In this document: positions 1,115-24,007 of the stretch, in pieces
Layout: each line of letters opens with the position of its first letter
How positions within the stretch are numbered: position 1 is the first letter of the stretch
Source: a virus
IMG/VR virus record: IMGVR_UViG_3300030450_001770
Coordinates: 1 to 29,257 of that record
Reading direction: 5' to 3' (one strand)
DNA length: 29,257 nt
Made by a program: the position numbers and the translations under genes
Notes under the pieces: generated by a model
The model's input: the letters and a program-made list of their open reading frames with translations, nothing else
What the model was told of the DNA's origin: nothing
Database searches by the model: none

Positions 1115-1303
1115 TTAACCTTCCTCCTTCTTGACGGCTTTAAAGTATTCCAAGATCTTGATGATAGGTGCGATAATAAACCCTAAAAGAATAAAGATAA
1201 AAGGCGATAAGATAACTATCTTAAGGACCGCCTGACCGTAAATTAAAGATAATACTATAGCGCTTAATATAAAGATGACTGGTAAAGTTGCGTCTGATTT
1301 CAT
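1115..1303 (-). CDS. Small two-helix membrane protein, 62 aa
   Basis: This 62-residue protein has two hydrophobic segments, roughly residues 7-24 and 28-50, joined by a short turn (YGQAVLK), and a charged C-terminal tail (residues 51-62, KAVKKEEG). The shape is a helical hairpin in the inner membrane. The start ATG (1303-1301) has a strong AGGAGG site 6 bases upstream, so the gene is well supported. It is the first leftward gene after the divergent control region and is probably driven by the extended -10 promoter at 1336-1344. Small two-helix proteins can be holins, superinfection-exclusion proteins or other membrane effectors. Its place in the early arm, far from the endolysin, argues against a holin. 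Function unknown. Confidence 0.75.
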   Translation of the reverse strand: MKSDATLPVIFILSAIVLSLIYGQAVLKIVILSPFIFILLGFIIAPIIKILEYFKAVKKEEG

Positions 1304-1316
1304 GCTGCCTCCTTAT

Positions 1317-1339
1317 TAATGATTATTATATAATCATTA
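1317..1339. promoter_or_regulatory. Operator-like 9-bp dyad at leftward promoter
   Basis: TAATGATTA (1317-1325) and TAATCATTA (1331-1339) are perfect inverted arms around TTATA. The dyad lies between the -10 element (1336-1341) and the ribosome-binding site of the membrane-protein gene, so it overlaps the expected start of transcription. A repressor or autoregulator bound here would block leftward transcription. Confidence 0.55.
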
Positions 1340-1344
1340 TAACA
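1336..1344 (-). promoter_or_regulatory. Extended -10 leftward promoter
   Basis: Read leftward, the sequence is TGTTATAAT, an exact TGn-TATAAT extended -10. I see no good -35 at 16-18 bases, which extended -10 promoters can tolerate. Transcription would start near 1329, about 26 bases before the start codon of the 62-residue membrane protein. Confidence 0.5.
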
Positions 1345-1363: not shown

Positions 1364-1492
1364 CTTAAGAAAACATTAATATTTACCTTAAGACAACCTT
1401 AAGATAAGTCACTGACCTAAGATCCTTAAGCTAATCTTAAGACAAACTAAAGACCGCCCTTAAGTCAGCGGCTTACTTAAATTAGCCTTAAG
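1364..1492. repeat. Array of seven CTTAAG palindromes
   Basis: Perfect CTTAAG hexamers start at 1364, 1387, 1398, 1425, 1436, 1459 and 1487. The spacings are 23, 11, 27, 11, 23 and 28, so the first six are mirror-symmetric about base 1414, next to a GTCA-C-TGAC dyad at 1408-1416. Most sit in the longer context CCTTAAGA. Five-of-six copies occur at 1416-1421 and 1476-1481. The 11 and 23 spacings fit one and two helical turns, suggesting co-operative protein binding. Confidence 0.75.
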
Positions 1493-1554
1493 AAAATCTT
1501 TAGGTTGCAATGCTATGTATATAAAAAGACGATGGTGTAAATGAAGATTGTTTA

Positions 1555-1568
1555 GGGGGTGCACCCCC
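1555..1568. repeat. 14-bp GC-rich perfect palindrome
   Basis: GGGGGTGCACCCCC is its own reverse complement and stands out in AT-rich DNA. It could be a protein site, or form a 5-bp G-C stem with a TGCA loop. No T run follows on either strand, so it is not a simple terminator. Confidence 0.55.
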
Positions 1569-1652
1569 AAATCATGTAAAGTTTATATTACGTATATGTC
1601 CCTCGTCACACCGAGGAGTAAAATCTCAAATACTTTAACGCATAATCCCATA

Positions 1653-1692: not shown

Positions 1693-2253
1693 ATGAAGCT
1701 AACAAAAAGAAATCAAGACGCAATCCAAGCTAAGACGCCTGCGGAGTATGGAGACCTAACCCAAATCACTAGTCGGTATAGACCTGACGTAGGAGATGCA
1801 GTTTGTTTGCTGGTCCGACAAGGAATCACGCTAAAAGAAATAGCCCAAAGATTGCCGATCAAAGATGTGACAACTATTTATAGTTGGCGTAGCACCCACA
1901 TGGATTTCAGAGAAAAATTAGAACAAGCCCGAAAGGATGCTGCTGATAATTTCATCGATAAGATCCAAGAGATTGCTGACGCTAACAACTTACCTAAAGA
2001 TGAAGTACCAGGTGCTAGGTTAAGAGTTGATTCCTACAAATGGCTTGCAGAAAAAGCTAACCCACAAAAATACTCGCCTAAAAGTGTGATAGCGGCTGAT
2101 GAGGATAACCCTTTGCAGATAGTAATTGACACTGGCATTAAACGAGACGAACCAGTCGAAGCCGATTACACTAATATTGATGGCAGCGGTAAGACTATTA
2201 CTTATACAGAAGAACAACATTCACAAGATAGTGATGATGGACGTTCTTCCTGA
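1693..2253 (+). CDS. terS: Terminase small subunit
   Basis: This is the DNA-recognition subunit of the packaging motor, expected to bind the packaging site and recruit the large subunit. The protein has 186 residues. A helix-turn-helix-like stretch lies at about residues 44-66 (GITLKEIAQRLP, then IYSWR). A helical region with the family-typical order EKLEQARKDAADN, GARLRVDSYKWLAEKANP and QKYSPKS follows at 75-130, then an acidic disordered tail rich in Asp, Glu and Ser. It sits just before the large subunit, as in most tailed phages. The start ATG at 1693 lacks a good Shine-Dalgarno and is chosen because the family homology begins soon after. The 3' end overlaps the next small gene. Confidence 0.85.
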   Translation: MKLTKRNQDAIQAKTPAEYGDLTQITSRYRPDVGDAVCLLVRQGITLKEIAQRLPIKDVTTIYSWRSTHMDFREKLEQARKDAADNFIDKIQEIADANNLPKDEVPGARLRVDSYKWLAEKANPQKYSPKSVIAADEDNPLQIVIDTGIKRDEPVEADYTNIDGSGKTITYTEEQHSQDSDDGRSS

Positions 2254-2377: not shown

Positions 2378-2481
2378 TAGAGTGCTTTGTTTTGCTGGCG
2401 TACATGTGATGTTTAGATATAAAACGCTATCGGAAACATTCCCTGTTATCCATAAATGTGAATGCGGTAGGAGACACGATA

Positions 2482-3807
2482 TTGACTGTAATACCTGACG
2501 ATCGAATTAAAAAAATTTCTACCGGATACAATCCTAGACCTTTGCAAAAAATTATTCACTTTAGTATGAAGCGTTTTAATGTGCTGGTTCTGCATAGACG
2601 TTTTGGAAAAACTGTTCTCTCAATAAACGAGACAATTGATCGGGCATTACGCTGTTCTTTAAAAAGCCCCCAATATGCTTACATAGCACCGACCTACGGT
2701 CAGGCCAAAAGGATTGCATGGGAATACTTGAAGGAATATACGAAGGACATACCAGGAGCTAAGCCTAATGAAGCTGAGCTTCGTGTAGATATTCCTAGAC
2801 CGAGTTCGAAAGATAAAATAAGATTTATGCTCCTTGGTTCGGAAAACCCTGACACTATAAGGGGGATCTATCTAGATGGCGTTGTACTTGACGAATTTGC
2901 AGTCTGTGACCCTACAATCTGGGGACAAGTCGTGCGTCCTGCGCTTGCTGACCGTTCGGGCTGGGCGATTTTTCTCGGGACCCCTAAGGGTCAAAATCAT
3001 TTTTTTGATCTATACAACAAAGCGAAAAAAAATAAAGACTGGTATGTCTGCACGTATCGAGCTTCAGAGACAAAAGTTCTTTCCGACTATGAGCTTAAAG
3101 CTGCAAAAGATGAGATGAGTGAAGAAGAGTTCCTCCAAGAGTTTGAGTGCAGTTTTACAGCCGCTAACACAGGCGCATATTACCAAAAGCTTATGCTATC
3201 AGCAGAAAGCGAGGGACGTATCACTAGCGTACCATACGATAGCGCATGCTATGTCGATACGTATTGGGATTTAGGAATAGGTGATACAACTGCTATTTGG
3301 TTCTTGCAGTCTGTTGGTCATGAATATCACTTGATTGATTATATCGAAATGTCGGGTAAGGGTCTTGATTGGTTTGTTTCGGAAATTAATAAAAAGCCTT
3401 ATACTTATAGGGAGCATATCTTGCCTCATGATGCTAGTGCTAGAGAGTTGGGTACTGGTAAAAGTAGACAAGAGACATTGCGTACTTTAGGACTAACACG
3501 ATTATATATTTTACCTCGCTGGAAAGTAGATGATGGGATCAACGCTGTTAGAACGATCCTTAGTAAGTGTTGGTTTGATAAGGATAAATGTGAGAGGGGT
3601 ATCACTGCTTTGATGGCATACGAGAGAAAGTGGGATGCTAGGAATCAGATATTCATGGAAAAGCCTAAACACAACTGGGCTTCTCATGGGGCTGATGCGT
3701 TTAGGTATTTAGCAATGGGTGTACGACCGGAATCACAAAGAGTACAATCTCAAATGCTGACTAATTATCGGGAAGCGCAGAGTGAATATGATATATTTGA
3801 ATTATAG
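2482..3807 (+). CDS. terL: Terminase large subunit, ATPase and nuclease
   Basis: This is the packaging motor: an ATPase that drives DNA into the prohead through the portal and a nuclease that cuts the concatemer. In a 449-residue numbering from GTG 2458, the Walker A-type motif is HRRFGKT (46-52). Walker B is VVLDE (142-146) and the coupling motif is GTPKG (174-178). The RNase H-fold nuclease acidic residues are probably Asp271 (WDLGIGDT), Asp325 (LPHDAS) and Asp413 (GADAFR). I prefer the TTG at 2482 as start because TAGGAG lies 8 bases upstream, whereas GTG 2458 has no ribosome site; this removes 8 residues. The product is full length for the family and all motifs are intact. The hypothetical gene at 3818 and the portal gene follow closely. 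Confidence 0.93.
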   Translation: MTVIPDDRIKKISTGYNPRPLQKIIHFSMKRFNVLVLHRRFGKTVLSINETIDRALRCSLKSPQYAYIAPTYGQAKRIAWEYLKEYTKDIPGAKPNEAELRVDIPRPSSKDKIRFMLLGSENPDTIRGIYLDGVVLDEFAVCDPTIWGQVVRPALADRSGWAIFLGTPKGQNHFFDLYNKAKKNKDWYVCTYRASETKVLSDYELKAAKDEMSEEEFLQEFECSFTAANTGAYYQKLMLSAESEGRITSVPYDSACYVDTYWDLGIGDTTAIWFLQSVGHEYHLIDYIEMSGKGLDWFVSEINKKPYTYREHILPHDASARELGTGKSRQETLRTLGLTRLYILPRWKVDDGINAVRTILSKCWFDKDKCERGITALMAYERKWDARNQIFMEKPKHNWASHGADAFRYLAMGVRPESQRVQSQMLTNYREAQSEYDIFEL

Positions 3808-18000: not shown

Positions 18001-19556
18001 CAAAGAGAAAATTAAATGCTGATATTTTAAAATTAAAAAATGAATCACCTGAATCGTATTCTAAATATATGTCTAATTTAGAAAAGAATTACAGCAAAGG
18101 TATTAAACAGTATTTAAATGATAGCTCAAATTTTGACGAAGCTATGGGGGAAGCCAGAAATATAACCCTTACAAAGCAATACAACAGTGCTACTGGAGAA
18201 GATTATTCTTTAACTGCTCTTGGGGAAATTGGGAATATTAGTTCCTTAATGAGTAAATTTCAGGAAATGCCTGTTTTAAATTGGTTCTACCCTTTTGCAA
18301 GGATATCTATAAATGTAGCAGACTTCTTAACTCAATACCTTCCCCTTGGATTAAATAGATGGAACAAAGGCATTGCTGATGATTTACAAGCAGGGGGTTA
18401 TAGGGCGGCTAAGGCTACAGCTAAAGCAAGAGTTGGTCTTGTGTTTTCTGGAATGGCTTACGGTTTAGCTAGAAATAATGTTATTACAGGAAATGGCCCT
18501 GTAGATCCTTACGGTAAACAGCAATGGAGACAATTAGGGATTAGGGAACGGAGCATTAATATAGGCGATATTTCCATTCCAGTAGATACTATAGATCCAT
18601 TTGGTAAATATTTGGTAGCGGTAGCCGATGTTAAAGATGGTCTTACAAGAGCTTTTAATGATGGCGATGAAGAACTAATAGAAAAATCAGGTCCAGTTTT
18701 AGCAAATTTAGCATTAGCTTTATCTGAAATTGCCACACCTGATGTTTTAAAAGAAACTTTTTTAGGGATGACAAATGTAGGATTAGCCCTAAAAAGAGGC
18801 GATTACTCAAAAGGCTCTTTCCAAACAGGTCGTTTTTTATCAACAGCTACAGGTAAAATAGTTCCTTTTTCGTCTGCTGTACGAAGTTTTTTTAAACCAG
18901 AAGAAAGAATGTCTTACGTTGAATATGACAAAGACGGTTTAAATTTTTTAGATACTGCTGTTAAAGGTGTTACTTCTTTGTTTGGGTCTCCTGGTAGCGT
19001 TCCAGAAAAAAATATTTTTAACGATAAAGTTTATTACCATTCAATACCTAAAGAAGTTTTAGGAGAAGCGGTAGACCAAGATTATATTAACAGGTATGCA
19101 GTTAGTCCGATGAAAAAAGCTTTGAAACTTACAGGACTAGCTAAGTATCAAGAAAAAAGACAAGACCCTGTATACAAAAAACTTAGGGATCTAGTCCTTC
19201 ACTTACCAGAAAAAAGTTATAAAAATAGAGATTTGCCTCTTCCTCGTTTAAGCAGAACGCTTAGAATACAGAACGAGTCGGTTACTCTTGATAATAAACA
19301 ATATAGCGACCTAATTGGCTACACAAATGGTTATCATCCTGACGGTAGAAAGTTTATGAAGCCTATGAAAGAATACTTAAACGAGTTGGTACAGACAGAT
19401 AAGTTTAACGCTTATCCTGAAGAATTACAGTCTGAACTTATTAAAAGTATTGTAAGAGAGTACCACAAAGCTGGTCGTTCTATGTTTAAAGCAATGAACA
19501 AACAATTTCAGAATGATGCTATTACAAAAATTAATGAAAGTATGGGGATAGAATAA
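15063..19556 (+). CDS. Internal virion protein D (T7 gp16-like)
   Basis: This is the largest ejection protein, 1497 residues (T7 gp16 about 1318), expected to form the inner-membrane end of the DNA-translocation tube. Visible features are hydrophobic helices near residues 214-230 and 297-318, a long charged coiled coil at about 398-460, and a late hydrophobic block NWFYPFARISINVADFLTQY (about 1076-1095), followed by LVFSGMAYGLA (about 1124-1134). The N-terminal 100 residues lack the Glu-Ser and GLMQ motifs of the lytic transglycosylase domain found in T7 gp16. The ATG has AGGATT upstream, and the stop overlaps the fibre start as TAATG. Confidence 0.8.
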   Translation: MSEEFKENNPFYQHLANEYNLLNSNEYASASVDSALNEMTQLNMVDYYNNHTDFEHKERLKKIDAQRSEFVTRIDDHINQNVPTPTPLKKPKEPKLELDPVTKAAQAVADPMTAGLKAASLLADTDIPVLKQYGQAAEISLDFINGLKKSITGTVAAIPQLIEDGLAAANVESQTLNNFNDRTSEIIDASFRSSGKYTANIKGYDVDVPHLTGEILGHFALPAGVGAAVLKATKNAGMITKGASLLLSEAAVGAVTTDKESGTLLNMFYEKDEHERLYPMLRMLHIDEDDTAFEARMKGALEGVLPVGAIGAVKGIIETGKQASRGIRAVRDVAVIKQINKKPGLAVDFLYANKGADFNESKFKDFVFRDFKKDSYDNLINATFKYLKDEEGAIFIGKKEKHIARIEKARDKLLKNIEEKELQISKIDKNSPEAKQLRKEILAIKKNEYEIDSFKEKFLTDLKKGDFTDSTESLKQLSKKMPTLKTDTEMDIALKAFDDQVKFIDDLKRKDLTTYNKLKGIFSNKSLKEVSREDIENFDFLSAFNKEGGSYEDIAHAVSDPDFTSKEVSNILQTFYKTDDIKKYTDAELAKKAKDVIEVYGGNPEAVEKMSREGLLSFPEAVAADHLLVKNGFTELADAADKLSKAKAKPGNKKELQVYLVNFLDKQAAFNKLVANMTQRRSDAGTSLRLQTTDVRSKIIQQTARKEFQDFNFNDPEVQAQFFEKILHADPGEVKRISSEVSDIFKLISENKISMNEALKEMAYRGAKAKRNNNLKIFFYNNMLSSFGTMAKNLVGLQFNKMTDDLTEVFSKMASKSEYYNAENFDTETFNKLLKVMDEMDVHEEATSEFLQNSKFLSGFYDKKSGKMKSKSKIFKDSFTIGKSILDPGGEKYGVGYKSLTDAEKMALDSHSFTFGKKPSTDEIAMTFFKEQVLNDANKIQQDFNALSPASIHSIPLRTLNAMDEAYKAKIVYEKMLLTAKRKLNADILKLKNESPESYSKYMSNLEKNYSKGIKQYLNDSSNFDEAMGEARNITLTKQYNSATGEDYSLTALGEIGNISSLMSKFQEMPVLNWFYPFARISINVADFLTQYLPLGLNRWNKGIADDLQAGGYRAAKATAKARVGLVFSGMAYGLARNNVITGNGPVDPYGKQQWRQLGIRERSINIGDISIPVDTIDPFGKYLVAVADVKDGLTRAFNDGDEELIEKSGPVLANLALALSEIATPDVLKETFLGMTNVGLALKRGDYSKGSFQTGRFLSTATGKIVPFSSAVRSFFKPEERMSYVEYDKDGLNFLDTAVKGVTSLFGSPGSVPEKNIFNDKVYYHSIPKEVLGEAVDQDYINRYAVSPMKKALKLTGLAKYQEKRQDPVYKKLRDLVLHLPEKSYKNRDLPLPRLSRTLRIQNESVTLDNKQYSDLIGYTNGYHPDGRKFMKPMKEYLNELVQTDKFNAYPEELQSELIKSIVREYHKAGRSMFKAMNKQFQNDAITKINESMGIE

Positions 19557-22500
19557 TGACAGTAAGTAATACAACTGTAACAACAAGCTCAAACGGTACA
19601 GGAACAAATGGGTCTGATGGCGCATTTTCATTTGCTATAGGGAACATAAAGTTTTCTGATAATTCTGACCTTGATGTTTACATTAGAGATGTAGGTGAAA
19701 GCCCTCCTACAGAAGCTTTAAAAACTATTACTACCCATTATTTTATAACAGATAGCTCAGGCAATCAGGTTAACCCTGGAACTCATATTAGGTTTGATAC
19801 TTCTGCTGGCCATAGCCGCCCACTTAATGACCAAAAAGTTGTTGTCAAAAGAAAGGTAGAGCTAACACAAAGTACAGACTACGCCTCAGGCGATGCCTTC
19901 CCTGCTGACTCTCACGAAGATGCTCTTGATAAGCTAACGTTGTTAGTTCAGCAAATGCAGGAGCAACTTGATAGGGCGTGGACTTATCCCGAAACATACA
20001 GCACGTTAGCTAATGTTAAAATGCCTGAGCCAGCTAATGATGGTATTATAAAGTATAATGCCGATGCGACTGCTCTAGTTCTAGATACTGACCTTGTTAA
20101 CTCTACCTATAAACTTTATGCTAGTAACACTTCAGATACTACGGCTGGATTTTTAAATGACAAACTAGCTGCTGGTACTGGTCTTTCTAAATCTAATACT
20201 GATGGTGTAGAGAACCAGCAAGTTACTTTATCTGTAGATCTTAAGACCTCAACTGATTTAAATGAAAATTCTGCAAGCCATGCAGCTTCTCAACGATCTA
20301 TTAAAACTTATGTTGATGCAGTTACAACTTCGCTAGGATTACAGGATTTAGATTTTTCTGGTGATTCAGGTGGCGCGCAAAGTGTAGACCTTGATACCCA
20401 ATCCCTCACCGTAGAAGGTGGAACAGGTATTGATACGACGGGGTCGTCTCAAAAGATTAGTGTCGCCATTGACTCTACGGTAACTACAAATTCTGGCACT
20501 CAAACATTAACAAACAAAACCCTTACTAGTCCCAAATTAAATGAAGATGTTGCAATCACGGCAACTGCTACAGAAGTAAATATATTAGATGGGGTTACGG
20601 CTTCTACTTCCGAATTAAATATTATGGATGGAGTTACGGCTACTACTTCTGAATTAAATATAATGGATGGGGTTACGTCTACGGCTTCTGAACTAAACAT
20701 ATTAGATGGTGTAACTTCTACGGCCTCTGAACTAAACATATTGGACGGAGTAACAGCGTCTACTTCTGAACTAAATATAATGGACGGAGTGACCGCATCT
20801 ACTTCCGAACTAAACATAATGGACGGGGTGACTGCATCTACTTCTGAATTGAATATAATGGATGGAGTAACAGCGTCTACTTCTGAACTAAATATAATGG
20901 ATGGGGTAACATCTACTGCTTCTGAATTAAATATATTGGATGGGGTTACGTCTACTGCTACCGAGTTAAATATACTAGATGGAGTAACAGCGTCTACTTC
21001 AGAAATAAATGTATTAGATGGTGCTACAGCCGGAACCAACGTAGCTAGTAAAGCCCTCGTTGTAGACAGTAATAAAAAAATTAATGAACTTATTCAAAAT
21101 TATGGTGAATTTAAACACCAAGGTTCGGACCCTGCGAATGCTACAGCTTCTCAGGATGTTCGCCTCTATGCCAAAGATAGTAAGTTATATACAAAAGATA
21201 ATAGTGGTACAGTTACCGAACTTGGAGCAGGCGGTGGTGTAGGAAGTATTGACACTATCTTTACCCTTCAAGCTAAAACGGCTGATGCTGTTAGCGATGC
21301 TAGTGGTGACGATGCAGTTTTTAGAGGGGCAGCAGCTTCTATAACTTCAGCGCCTACTTTAGACACAACCGCTGGCAAATTAATTAACACTGAAAAAGTA
21401 TTTAAATATACATCAGCTTCAGGCTCTACAAATGACTGGTGGTTGTACTCTCAAGCTATTCCTCAAGGTTATCAGAATAGAAACATGGTCCTCCAGTTAC
21501 AGTATTATATGGTAGAGACTTCTGGCGATAACTTAGATCAAGCTTTTAGATTCGTAGCTAGGGATGCTACCAATGGTAAGGTTACTCAATTAAACGGTGC
21601 AGTTAGCTCTTCTAACACTATTACTCTTGATGCTTTTGCTGATGGAGACTTTACAGTAGGAGACAGAGTAACCTTCAAGGATACTGGTGGGGCCATTCAC
21701 TTTAGATATATTACTAGTGTAACCCATGGTAGTGAACAGCTTACAATATCAGGTGCAACGGTTTCAATAGCTGACGATGCTTACTTTGTATCTGGTATTC
21801 TCACTGATGAACTAGATTACCTACCAAATTTTAAACCAACTACAGCAGGGCAAGATGGTTCTAAAGCTTATCGTAAACAATTAGCTATACCTAGTAACTG
21901 TGACACCTTAGAATTTGGGTTCCATTATCTTGGTAGTCAGACTGACCAGTTCCTCTACTACGATGACATAGCTTTGAGTGCCAACCAATTCTTGCAGACT
22001 AGTAGTCAGGGGCAAACGGAGTGTTATGTAGCTCATAACCAATCGACTTTTTGGGGTGCTTCGGGAGCTTCAGACCAATTTAATAAAGCTTTATTATCTC
22101 CAGGCCCAGGGACACCCGCTTTGGCTGATAGTAAGTTAATAGAAATTACTGATGTTAGTAGTGATACTCGAATTATAGCTCGCCAAAGAATTGAATTAAA
22201 CGTTTCTGCTATAGCGGCCATGAATACGGGTCAGATGCTAAAAATTTATAATAGTGATGACGAGATGAGAATCGGGGCGCAAAATCCTGATGGAACAAGT
22301 GCAGCCGCTTATGTAGAGGTTACAGAGGTTTTAGTACTAGAAAAAAATGATTACATCTATTTCAAAACTGATGCAAAAGGTTCTCAATATGGAGCCATGA
22401 CTCTTACAGCTACCCCACAAGTCAATGACGTAATTTTATTAAATTCCCAAGATGAGATCTTTACGGACTGGCAGGTTTATACGCCTGCTGTCTCAGGGGG

Positions 22501-24007
22501 ACTTGTCGATTCAAGTGGGTCAGCTAATGGGTCGTTTGGTTCTACGATAACCTATAATAAGTGGCAGTGGCGAAGGATAGGCGGAGATATGGAAGTCCGA
22601 TGGGACTACAAACATACTGCCGCTGGCTCCGCAGGGTCTGGTGCCTACTATATGCAACTACCATCGGGATATGACATTGATTATGCTAGGCTCCCAGGGT
22701 CGGTAAACTCTGCTGTTGGGTCTGTTGTAGGAGTAGGAATTATTAGTAATGCATCAGGGCATGACTTACAGTACTATACACAGCCCTGTTATCCGGCAGT
22801 TGACACTACTAGTGGAAATTTAGTTGCGGCCCATACTAATGATATAAACTCTAGCAATTTAGACGGAGAGATGTATCCCACTGGTTGGAGTAGTGGTCAT
22901 ATTCATTTCAATACTGGAGGGATTCAAGTAAGTCTTTCTTTTAAAGTCCCCATAGCAGGCTGGACCTCAACTTTTAACCCTGTCCTGAGTATGCCGCTTG
23001 TGGATATTGGGGGGGCTATGGAGTATTGCCATCTCTATAACACCTCTGGGAGTACAGGTGGTTATTACCAAAAAATTCCTTATTTTGGGGCGACTCAAAA
23101 AAATACTGTTAGTAGTCTAGGGACGATCACGAACTCTAGCAGCGAAGGTTGCTATTTTACAGCATCTCAGAGAGTTAAGGTTACGAGTAATGTCTGGTTA
23201 TATTCGAATGCCACTAACTATTTTACAGTCGGATATGCACATAATATTACTACAGCAGAAAAAAACACAAACATTGGGTCACTCCCTGATTATAAAATAA
23301 TTGCTCAAAGTGATGGCTCTAATAATACTAGCAACATTGGTCGGGCAAGTTCTTGCTCTATCATCTTAGAGCCTGGAGAAACCCTTACCCCATCAACTGA
23401 AGCAGAGGGCATAGCAAGTGATAGCGGCGCCATAATTTTTACAGTAGAAAAAGACTACTCCAACACAAACATGGCCCACATTATTAAGCCTGCTGTTTGT
23501 ATAATTGAGGACCACAAAAGCCCTGACACAGGCGGTGGTGCGATGAATTCTAGTTCTTCGTCTACTCTTAACTTATATGATAGGGTTCTTAATACTTTCA
23601 AAGGCGAAACTTGGTTTGTTACACCTGGATCGGGAACGCTTGGCCGGGATGGAAACAATACAACCTTTAGTCTTATCGCCGGAACCTACGAACTTACCGC
23701 AAAACTTCCTAGTTTTTATACTGCAAGAACAATAGGTCGTTTGTATAACGTCACAGATTCCGTAATTCAATATCAGGGGCAAAATGGGGACGCAGCCATA
23801 TCAGGGTCGGTTAGTATAAATATTTTTATAGATTGTGTGTTTACAATTACAAAAACTACAGAGTTTAAATTTCAAACCGCAGGGTCATCCACAATTGGTA
23901 GTGCGAGTGATGTGGGACTTGGATTAGACCACGGAAATTCTAGTTATCTTGGATCTGGTGGTGGTGATGAAATTTACACTACAGTAAAAATAAGAAAACT
24001 TAAATAG
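19556..24007 (+). CDS. Tail fibre with T7 gp17-type anchor
   Basis: This is the receptor-binding fibre, 1483 residues. Residues 1-140 form the T7 gp17-type particle-binding domain (FSFAIGNIKFSDNSDLDVYI, later HEDALDKLTLLVQQMQEQLD). A region with NKTLTSPK precedes twelve 13-residue repeats of the type ELNIMDGVTASTS at about 340-495. A large beta-rich body follows. A segment WQVYTPAVSGG...WRRIGGDMEV (about 975-1020) is typical of modular receptor-binding tips. The C-terminus has a jelly-roll-like block, AGTYELTAKLP then RTIGRLYNVTDS, ending IYTTVKIRKL, common in phage fibres. No autocleaving chaperone domain is seen. A gene for a charged helical protein follows. Confidence 0.9.
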   Translation: MTVSNTTVTTSSNGTGTNGSDGAFSFAIGNIKFSDNSDLDVYIRDVGESPPTEALKTITTHYFITDSSGNQVNPGTHIRFDTSAGHSRPLNDQKVVVKRKVELTQSTDYASGDAFPADSHEDALDKLTLLVQQMQEQLDRAWTYPETYSTLANVKMPEPANDGIIKYNADATALVLDTDLVNSTYKLYASNTSDTTAGFLNDKLAAGTGLSKSNTDGVENQQVTLSVDLKTSTDLNENSASHAASQRSIKTYVDAVTTSLGLQDLDFSGDSGGAQSVDLDTQSLTVEGGTGIDTTGSSQKISVAIDSTVTTNSGTQTLTNKTLTSPKLNEDVAITATATEVNILDGVTASTSELNIMDGVTATTSELNIMDGVTSTASELNILDGVTSTASELNILDGVTASTSELNIMDGVTASTSELNIMDGVTASTSELNIMDGVTASTSELNIMDGVTSTASELNILDGVTSTATELNILDGVTASTSEINVLDGATAGTNVASKALVVDSNKKINELIQNYGEFKHQGSDPANATASQDVRLYAKDSKLYTKDNSGTVTELGAGGGVGSIDTIFTLQAKTADAVSDASGDDAVFRGAAASITSAPTLDTTAGKLINTEKVFKYTSASGSTNDWWLYSQAIPQGYQNRNMVLQLQYYMVETSGDNLDQAFRFVARDATNGKVTQLNGAVSSSNTITLDAFADGDFTVGDRVTFKDTGGAIHFRYITSVTHGSEQLTISGATVSIADDAYFVSGILTDELDYLPNFKPTTAGQDGSKAYRKQLAIPSNCDTLEFGFHYLGSQTDQFLYYDDIALSANQFLQTSSQGQTECYVAHNQSTFWGASGASDQFNKALLSPGPGTPALADSKLIEITDVSSDTRIIARQRIELNVSAIAAMNTGQMLKIYNSDDEMRIGAQNPDGTSAAAYVEVTEVLVLEKNDYIYFKTDAKGSQYGAMTLTATPQVNDVILLNSQDEIFTDWQVYTPAVSGGLVDSSGSANGSFGSTITYNKWQWRRIGGDMEVRWDYKHTAAGSAGSGAYYMQLPSGYDIDYARLPGSVNSAVGSVVGVGIISNASGHDLQYYTQPCYPAVDTTSGNLVAAHTNDINSSNLDGEMYPTGWSSGHIHFNTGGIQVSLSFKVPIAGWTSTFNPVLSMPLVDIGGAMEYCHLYNTSGSTGGYYQKIPYFGATQKNTVSSLGTITNSSSEGCYFTASQRVKVTSNVWLYSNATNYFTVGYAHNITTAEKNTNIGSLPDYKIIAQSDGSNNTSNIGRASSCSIILEPGETLTPSTEAEGIASDSGAIIFTVEKDYSNTNMAHIIKPAVCIIEDHKSPDTGGGAMNSSSSSTLNLYDRVLNTFKGETWFVTPGSGTLGRDGNNTTFSLIAGTYELTAKLPSFYTARTIGRLYNVTDSVIQYQGQNGDAAISGSVSINIFIDCVFTITKTTEFKFQTAGSSTIGSASDVGLGLDHGNSSYLGSGGGDEIYTTVKIRKLK
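20573..21040 (+). repeat. Twelve tandem 39-bp units in fibre gene
   Basis: Twelve in-frame 39-base units encode variants of ELNIMDGVTASTS. The first begins GAAGTAAATATA and the last GAAATAAATGTA. Central units are nearly identical in protein but differ at third codon positions. Such arrays can gain or lose units by recombination, changing fibre length. Confidence 0.95.

Follow-up and report, generated by a model that had tools for sequence, protein, structure and literature searches.

The DNA analysed here (the window) is a viral record of 29,257 bases. It is classed as having no end repeat and is probably a fragment, from which most of the early region is absent. The gene terS (1693..2253, plus strand) codes for a small terminase of the Sf6 gp1 type (PF20901), as indicated by profile and structure matches. 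It is followed by terL (2458..3807, plus strand), the product of which is 44-50% identical to the TerL of HTVC010P-type pelagiphage and Methylophilales phage Venkman. Further rightward are genes for a head-tail adaptor, a capsid protein and tail proteins. On the minus strand, the opposite end of the window has genes for a nuclease and a DNA polymerase of family A. One ORF (19556-24007), coding for a putative tail fibre protein, contains tandem peptide repeats of the type TASELNI(L/M)DGVT (20500-21039). The phage groups with HTVC010P-type podoviruses, its TerL being 44-47% identical to those of pelagiphages and the divergent terS-terL arrangement being the same. When genome contigs were scanned for a host, a single remote TerL match (30%) was obtained, in a CPR bin.

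About 200 bp upstream of terS, between this gene and a putative leftward early promoter, lies an array of seven perfect CTTAAG palindromes. On the promoter side, the first leftward ORF (1115..1303, minus strand), taken from the ORF list and from relatives, codes for a hydrophobic protein of 62 aa. In several relatives, this slot is occupied by a different sequence; even L002-L005, which are otherwise nearly identical, differ here. The promoter has a predicted -10 (TATAAT on the minus strand, 1336..1341), while a consensus scan of the window gave no full sigma-70 match. A perfect inverted repeat with 10-bp arms (1317..1339, no strand) is operator-like and overlaps the -10/start region. A related palindrome is retained in the relatives, with changed sequence. 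On the terS side, a terS-proximal block (1549..1642, plus strand) was delimited by alignment. It contains a GGGGG/CCCCC hairpin, CCTCG..CGAGG and AAATACTTTAACGC, and parts of it are kept in every relative that was compared, whether or not the array is present. The block may be a core packaging site or a late promoter region, and as an essential element of either kind it is a better candidate than the array.

The palindromes start at 1364, 1387, 1398, 1425, 1436, 1459 and 1487 (span 1364..1492, no strand), with spacings of 23-11-27-11-23-28. The original prediction had reported these seven copies in 129 bases with the same spacings, and a sequence scan confirmed both. It had also put the chance expectation well under one, which is correct: about 0.07 copies are expected per 129 bases at shuffle density. 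Seven is the top local count for any hexamer within the window, and CTTAAG clusters reached at most three copies in 100 Markov simulations. CTTAAG is not over-represented in the window as a whole (12 observed versus 16.0 +/- 4.2 in shuffles of the 29,257 bases), so that the unusual feature is the clustering alone. The five copies outside the array (1220, 11829, 20240, 26526 and 28535) agree in number with the earlier count, although three of the approximate positions given there were off by one.

Two degenerate copies, CTAAAG (1447..1452, no strand; 11 bp past 1436) and CTTTAG (1498..1503, no strand; 11 bp past 1487), hold the 11-12 bp phase. The array therefore extends to 1503, and its unit is better written CTWWAG. 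There are nine CTWWAG copies in 140 bp, and five of the eight steps are 11 or 12 bp. Further near-misses are CCTAAG at 1416 and CTTAAA at 1476. The one-turn phasing that had been pointed out is thus real, and it recurs in unrelated phages (see below). We give next to no credence to chance or a repeat-expansion artefact without function. The array does grow and shrink quickly among relatives, as an artefact of this kind might, but the cluster is far outside the simulations, and CTTAAG is independently enriched upstream of terS in another TerS family (see below).

Phages with dense CtrA sites, e.g., Brevundimonas phage vB_BsubS-Delta, for which "lytic deferment" has been proposed (PMC9437464), resemble the window in that TTAA is densely repeated in the gap separating two divergent modules, next to the terminase end; the window also shares their signature of perfect TTAA-N7-TTAA. 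Four such pairs (1365, 1388, 1426 and 1477) are found within 127 bp, half of the eight in the window. Distant relatives of the phage infect Pelagibacter, so the sites might be those of CtrA from an alphaproteobacterial host. This explanation is nevertheless disfavoured and seems very improbable, as it is CTTAAG, and not TTAA, that is conserved as the unit. In the array region, seven of nine TTAA are part of CTTAAG, versus 5 of 288 elsewhere, and the degenerate copies preserve the outer C and G but not TTAA. In the relatives, N8 separates the first pair (12 bp). Pseudomonas phage UFV-P2 has a similar array (see below), and pseudomonads are not known to have CtrA. Streptococcal CiaR and staphylococcal SaeR sites were considered and rejected. 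A CiaR site requires A/T before the second TTAAG, where the array has C, and the known relatives infect aquatic proteobacteria.

The terS loci of 15 relatives were found; an alignment search for more TerS relatives led to the same contigs again. Three of them (L007, L014 and L016) do not extend far enough on the upstream side. L002-L004 have seven CTTAAG with spacings of 12-11-27-11-23-28, L005 has five and L006 four; in a sister group, L013 has two, and L012 and L015 have one each. No CTTAAG is present in this gap in L008-L011, although the flanking terS and terL are kept. The comparison with related phages that had been suggested as a check thus gave a mixed outcome: close relatives keep the phase and four to seven sites, but the array can be absent next to conserved terminase genes. 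It is clade-specific rather than essential throughout the family. Comparison with the wider HTVC010P-type group, in which HTVC010P, HTVC024P and HTVC100P were included, revealed no similarly dense cluster of CTTAAG or CTWWAG, so that packaging in this family, cultured pelagiphages included, does not generally depend on such an array. A lag-correlation scan for other arrays detected no 11-bp signal in L008, L010, L012 and L013, and a weak 12/24/36-bp signal in HTVC100P. The corresponding gap in HTVC100P (L303, 34127-34606) contains another short repeat, ACAAAC, in steps of about 11-12 bp. Two HTVC pelagiphage records begin at the first base of a CDS; they look rotated and are uninformative on genome ends.

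The best conserved core of the array (1380..1418, no strand) was identified by alignment. It contains ACCTTAAGACAACCTTAAGATAAGTCACTGACC, which is kept in L002-L006; CCTTAAGATAAG is found together with a partly similar tail also in L012 and L015. Around the first site, the alignment of the window with L002 has substitutions only and no indel, and the site is shifted by exactly 11 bp. The mirror symmetry of the first six sites, one of the features originally highlighted, exists in the window as described, but it is private to the window and is not seen in L002-L004. We consider it accidental, since the first site moved by exactly 11 bp through substitutions, which left the one-turn phase intact. 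Nor is the symmetry centred on a dyad as had been proposed: the dyad GTCACTGAC (1408-1416) has its centre at 1412, the array at 1414. In L005 and L018, which have near-identical TerS, the right half of the array is lost past the site equivalent to 1436. Unrelated sequence replaces it there, and identity returns at the terS-proximal block. Apparently, recombination has occurred inside the array here. Taken as a whole, the array is real, clade-specific and functional-looking.

The sites are also positioned relative to the leftward promoter. In the window, CTTAAG is found 22, 45, 56, 83, 94, 117 and 145 bp upstream of the -10. All relatives that carry sites (L002-L006, L012, L013 and L015) have a CTTAAG 33 bp upstream of the -10, which in most of them is the nearest copy; a CTTAAG at 22 bp, one turn nearer, is present in the window and in L013. 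The distance from the array to terS varies among relatives; that to the -10 is constant (33 bp) except in the window. The main rival explanation is accordingly an operator or activator array, bound by a transcription regulator that controls the leftward early promoter. The regulator could be phage-encoded or of the host OmpR/PhoB type, which binds 11-bp direct repeats, and the palindrome at 1317-1339, which overlaps the -10, would be a second operator. Direct repeats with an 11-bp period make up some of the well-known sites of the OmpR family. It is the constant distance to the promoter that keeps this explanation in place as the main rival, but the 33 bp could simply reflect shared ancestry. 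No regulator-family match was obtained among the scanned minus-strand ORFs of the window, from which most of the early region is missing. On balance we regard a regulator as possible but doubtful. A regulatory role and a TerS-binding role would be compatible if TerS silences the early promoter.

In this clade, the number of sites varies together with the recognition helix of TerS. In the predicted model of TerS (pLDDT of about 75-87 in the helix-turn-helix region, 55.8 for the whole model), the recognition helix comprises residues 59-68 (VTTIYSWRST; codons 1867..1896, plus strand), and this predicted helix matches Sf6 gp1 structures. The TerS proteins of L006, L008, L013, L012 and L009 are 80%, 73%, 67%, 64% and 59% identical to that of the window. 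The helix IYSWRSTH goes with four to seven sites and IYSWRSNH (TerS 64-67% identical) with one or two. Neither IFRWRRQY (73%) nor IYHWRRSQ (59%) goes with any site. Thus, the number of sites tracks the recognition helix and not the order of overall TerS identity. Residue 64 (codon 1882-1884, plus strand) is S in the lineages with sites and R or H in those without. It aligns with R48 of Sf6 TerS, and DNA binding is reduced in the Sf6 R48A mutant (PMC9611059). This co-variation would point to TerS as the protein that reads the array, but it is suggestive only, being based on sequences from about four lineages in which other genes differ too.

Viral contigs were scanned for three CTTAAG at 11-12 bp steps, which resulted in 77 stretches, mostly with spacings of 11,11. 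The control palindrome CTATAG yielded at least 120 phased stretches, so that phased hexamers as such are common. Phased CTTAAG is thus not singular in how widely it occurs, and our claim is limited to the position near terminases. Proximity was assessed only in contigs with a terL found by the phrog_2 profile, and non-redundant families were collapsed by eye. CTTAAG arrays are within 1 kb of terL in 11 of 18 non-redundant contigs versus an expectation of 3.6; placing them at random 5000 times never gave so many. CTATAG arrays are within 500 bp of terL in 8 of 15 versus 2.8 expected, typically 48-335 bp after a T7-type terL. The link to terminases is therefore that of a motif class and not of CTTAAG alone. 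Phased CTATAG arrays at 48-335 bp 3' of a T7-type terL were seen in L182, L185, L187, L190, L193, L194, L210, L224, L236, L238, L240, L254 and L257. In other phages, some arrays are directly 3' of terL, at the end of the late operon. A promoter activator would be unexpected at this place, which speaks against the regulator.

Four of the array contigs (L103, L142, L146 and L155) have TerS proteins that make up a separate, second family; the one from L155 has no PHROG match, the TerS of the window has three. By protein search, 80 members of this family were fetched, which were dereplicated to 18. In the 500 bp upstream of their terS, CTTAAG ranks first of 2080 hexamers (49 copies versus 6.1 expected), and without the two seeds there are still 35 versus 5.2 expected, with adjacent spacings mainly of 11-13 or 52-71 bp. 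CTATAG and CTAAAG are also raised, and the mix differs between helix classes, in statistics that ignore phylogeny. Among L343-L361, most members share a fixed arrangement of two CTTAAG pairs (11, 55, 11 bp), located roughly 260-350 bp ahead of terS. The 55-bp gap between such groups is also found in the L149 family. It is tempting to speculate that phased CTWWAG arrays (mostly CTTAAG, CTATAG or CTAAAG) are a widespread terminase recognition signal, converged or inherited across unrelated lineages with different TerS families, the exact hexamer co-evolving with the TerS recognition helix. In this generality, we consider the idea rather unlikely.

Nothing direct on CTTAAG or CCTAAAG arrays near terminases was found in the literature searched. 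The original statement that no phage element with this layout has been described is, however, too strong, because T7 has a close analogue. According to its sequence record, T7 has 11 CCTAAAG at the left end (three within bases 1-66, eight within 175-332), which mostly follow one another at intervals of 13 bp or a multiple of it, and another five in the last 270 bases at the right end. These are the terminal short-repeat arrays called SRL/SRR in the T7 literature. They resemble the array in being clustered CTWWAG-type hexamers in roughly helical phase, and they lie near a genome end and early promoters. They differ in that the period is mostly 13 bp and the unit is non-palindromic, and the ends of T7 are known. 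In Pseudomonas phage UFV-P2 (PaP3-like), CTTAAG occurs at 45048, 45059, 45071 and 45201, between terS (which ends at 44845) and the end of the record, the last 22 nt of which are identical to the first 22 nt. Here, ACCTTAAGACTACCTTAAG corresponds to ACCTTAAGACAACCTTAAG in the window, in both cases 5' of terS and close to the end of a record, but the TerS of UFV-P2 belongs to other PHROG families and its genome arrangement is different. In both the T7 and the UFV-P2 records, CTWWAG clusters thus accompany genome ends. Their function need not involve TerS. T7-type terminal short repeats might serve, for example, in concatemer processing or in duplication of terminal repeats, as would be in line with the location of the T7 arrays at both ends and with the CTATAG arrays that follow T7-type terL. 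Alternatively, the sites might be replication-origin iterons, but no initiator gene was recognised beside the array among the ORFs and profile matches of the window, which lacks most of the early region. Explanations of this type appear improbable to us.

Since CTTAAG clusters occur near packaging genes in unrelated phages, the array probably serves the packaging enzyme as a landing pad, rather than being a private curiosity. Three roles had been offered at the outset (a co-operative regulator, an origin array and a terminase-binding site next to terS); the third is now the best supported, although not proven. We favour the view that the sites, in phase with the DNA helix, are recognized by the ring-forming TerS (Sf6 gp1 type) of the phage itself and belong to the packaging-initiation or genome-terminus region, and would assign this reading a probability of roughly 0.45. 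Terminase binding best accounts for the fact that such arrays are next to terminase genes (5' of terS or 3' of terL), lie close to genome ends, keep helical phase and, in this clade, co-vary with the recognition helix. Counting against it, half of the array has gone from L005/L018 despite a near-identical TerS, the wider family has no comparable cluster, the distance to terS is variable and that to the leftward -10 nearly constant, and the control palindrome CTATAG also forms phased arrays near terL. Multiple sites in a packaging region are also known from the R sites of lambda cosB and from SPP1 pacL. In lambda and SPP1, they are bound by TerS; the repeat sequences are different from those of the array, for which TerS binding is a proposal from sequence. 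SPP1 TerS was reported to wrap pacL in a nucleosome-like manner (PMC4856287), but the evidence for wrapping of the SPP1 type is disputed (PMC9611059). DNA spooling has been proposed for Sf6, as is apparent from the title of reference 61 in PMC9611059.

For the array, we infer the following sequence of events. One or two TerS rings would contact the array through several helix-turn-helix domains that face outward; each domain would occupy one CTWWAG, at intervals of one or two helical turns, and a ring of this kind would suit sites that are repeated every turn. The exact 11-bp shift of the first site between near-identical relatives is what selection for phase would predict. Binding would spool the DNA and place TerL at a nearby cut site, perhaps within the terS-proximal block (1549-1642). 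Since the leftward early promoter directly adjoins the first sites, it could also be shut by TerS on the array late in infection.

The way in which TerS recognizes DNA is regarded in PMC9611059 as a central question still to be answered. With a compact and phased array of palindromes beside an Sf6-type terS, and with relatives that have seven, five, four, two, one or no sites and matching helix variants, nucleosome-like spooling becomes directly testable against other models. The array ties the long-known terminal short repeats of T7 to similar arrays beside the terminase genes of many uncultured phages. It is new as a variant, and its wider interest comes mainly from the recurrence of the motif class beside terminases. 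If true, the co-evolution of CTWWAG and the TerS helix would amount to a readable DNA code for packaging initiation.
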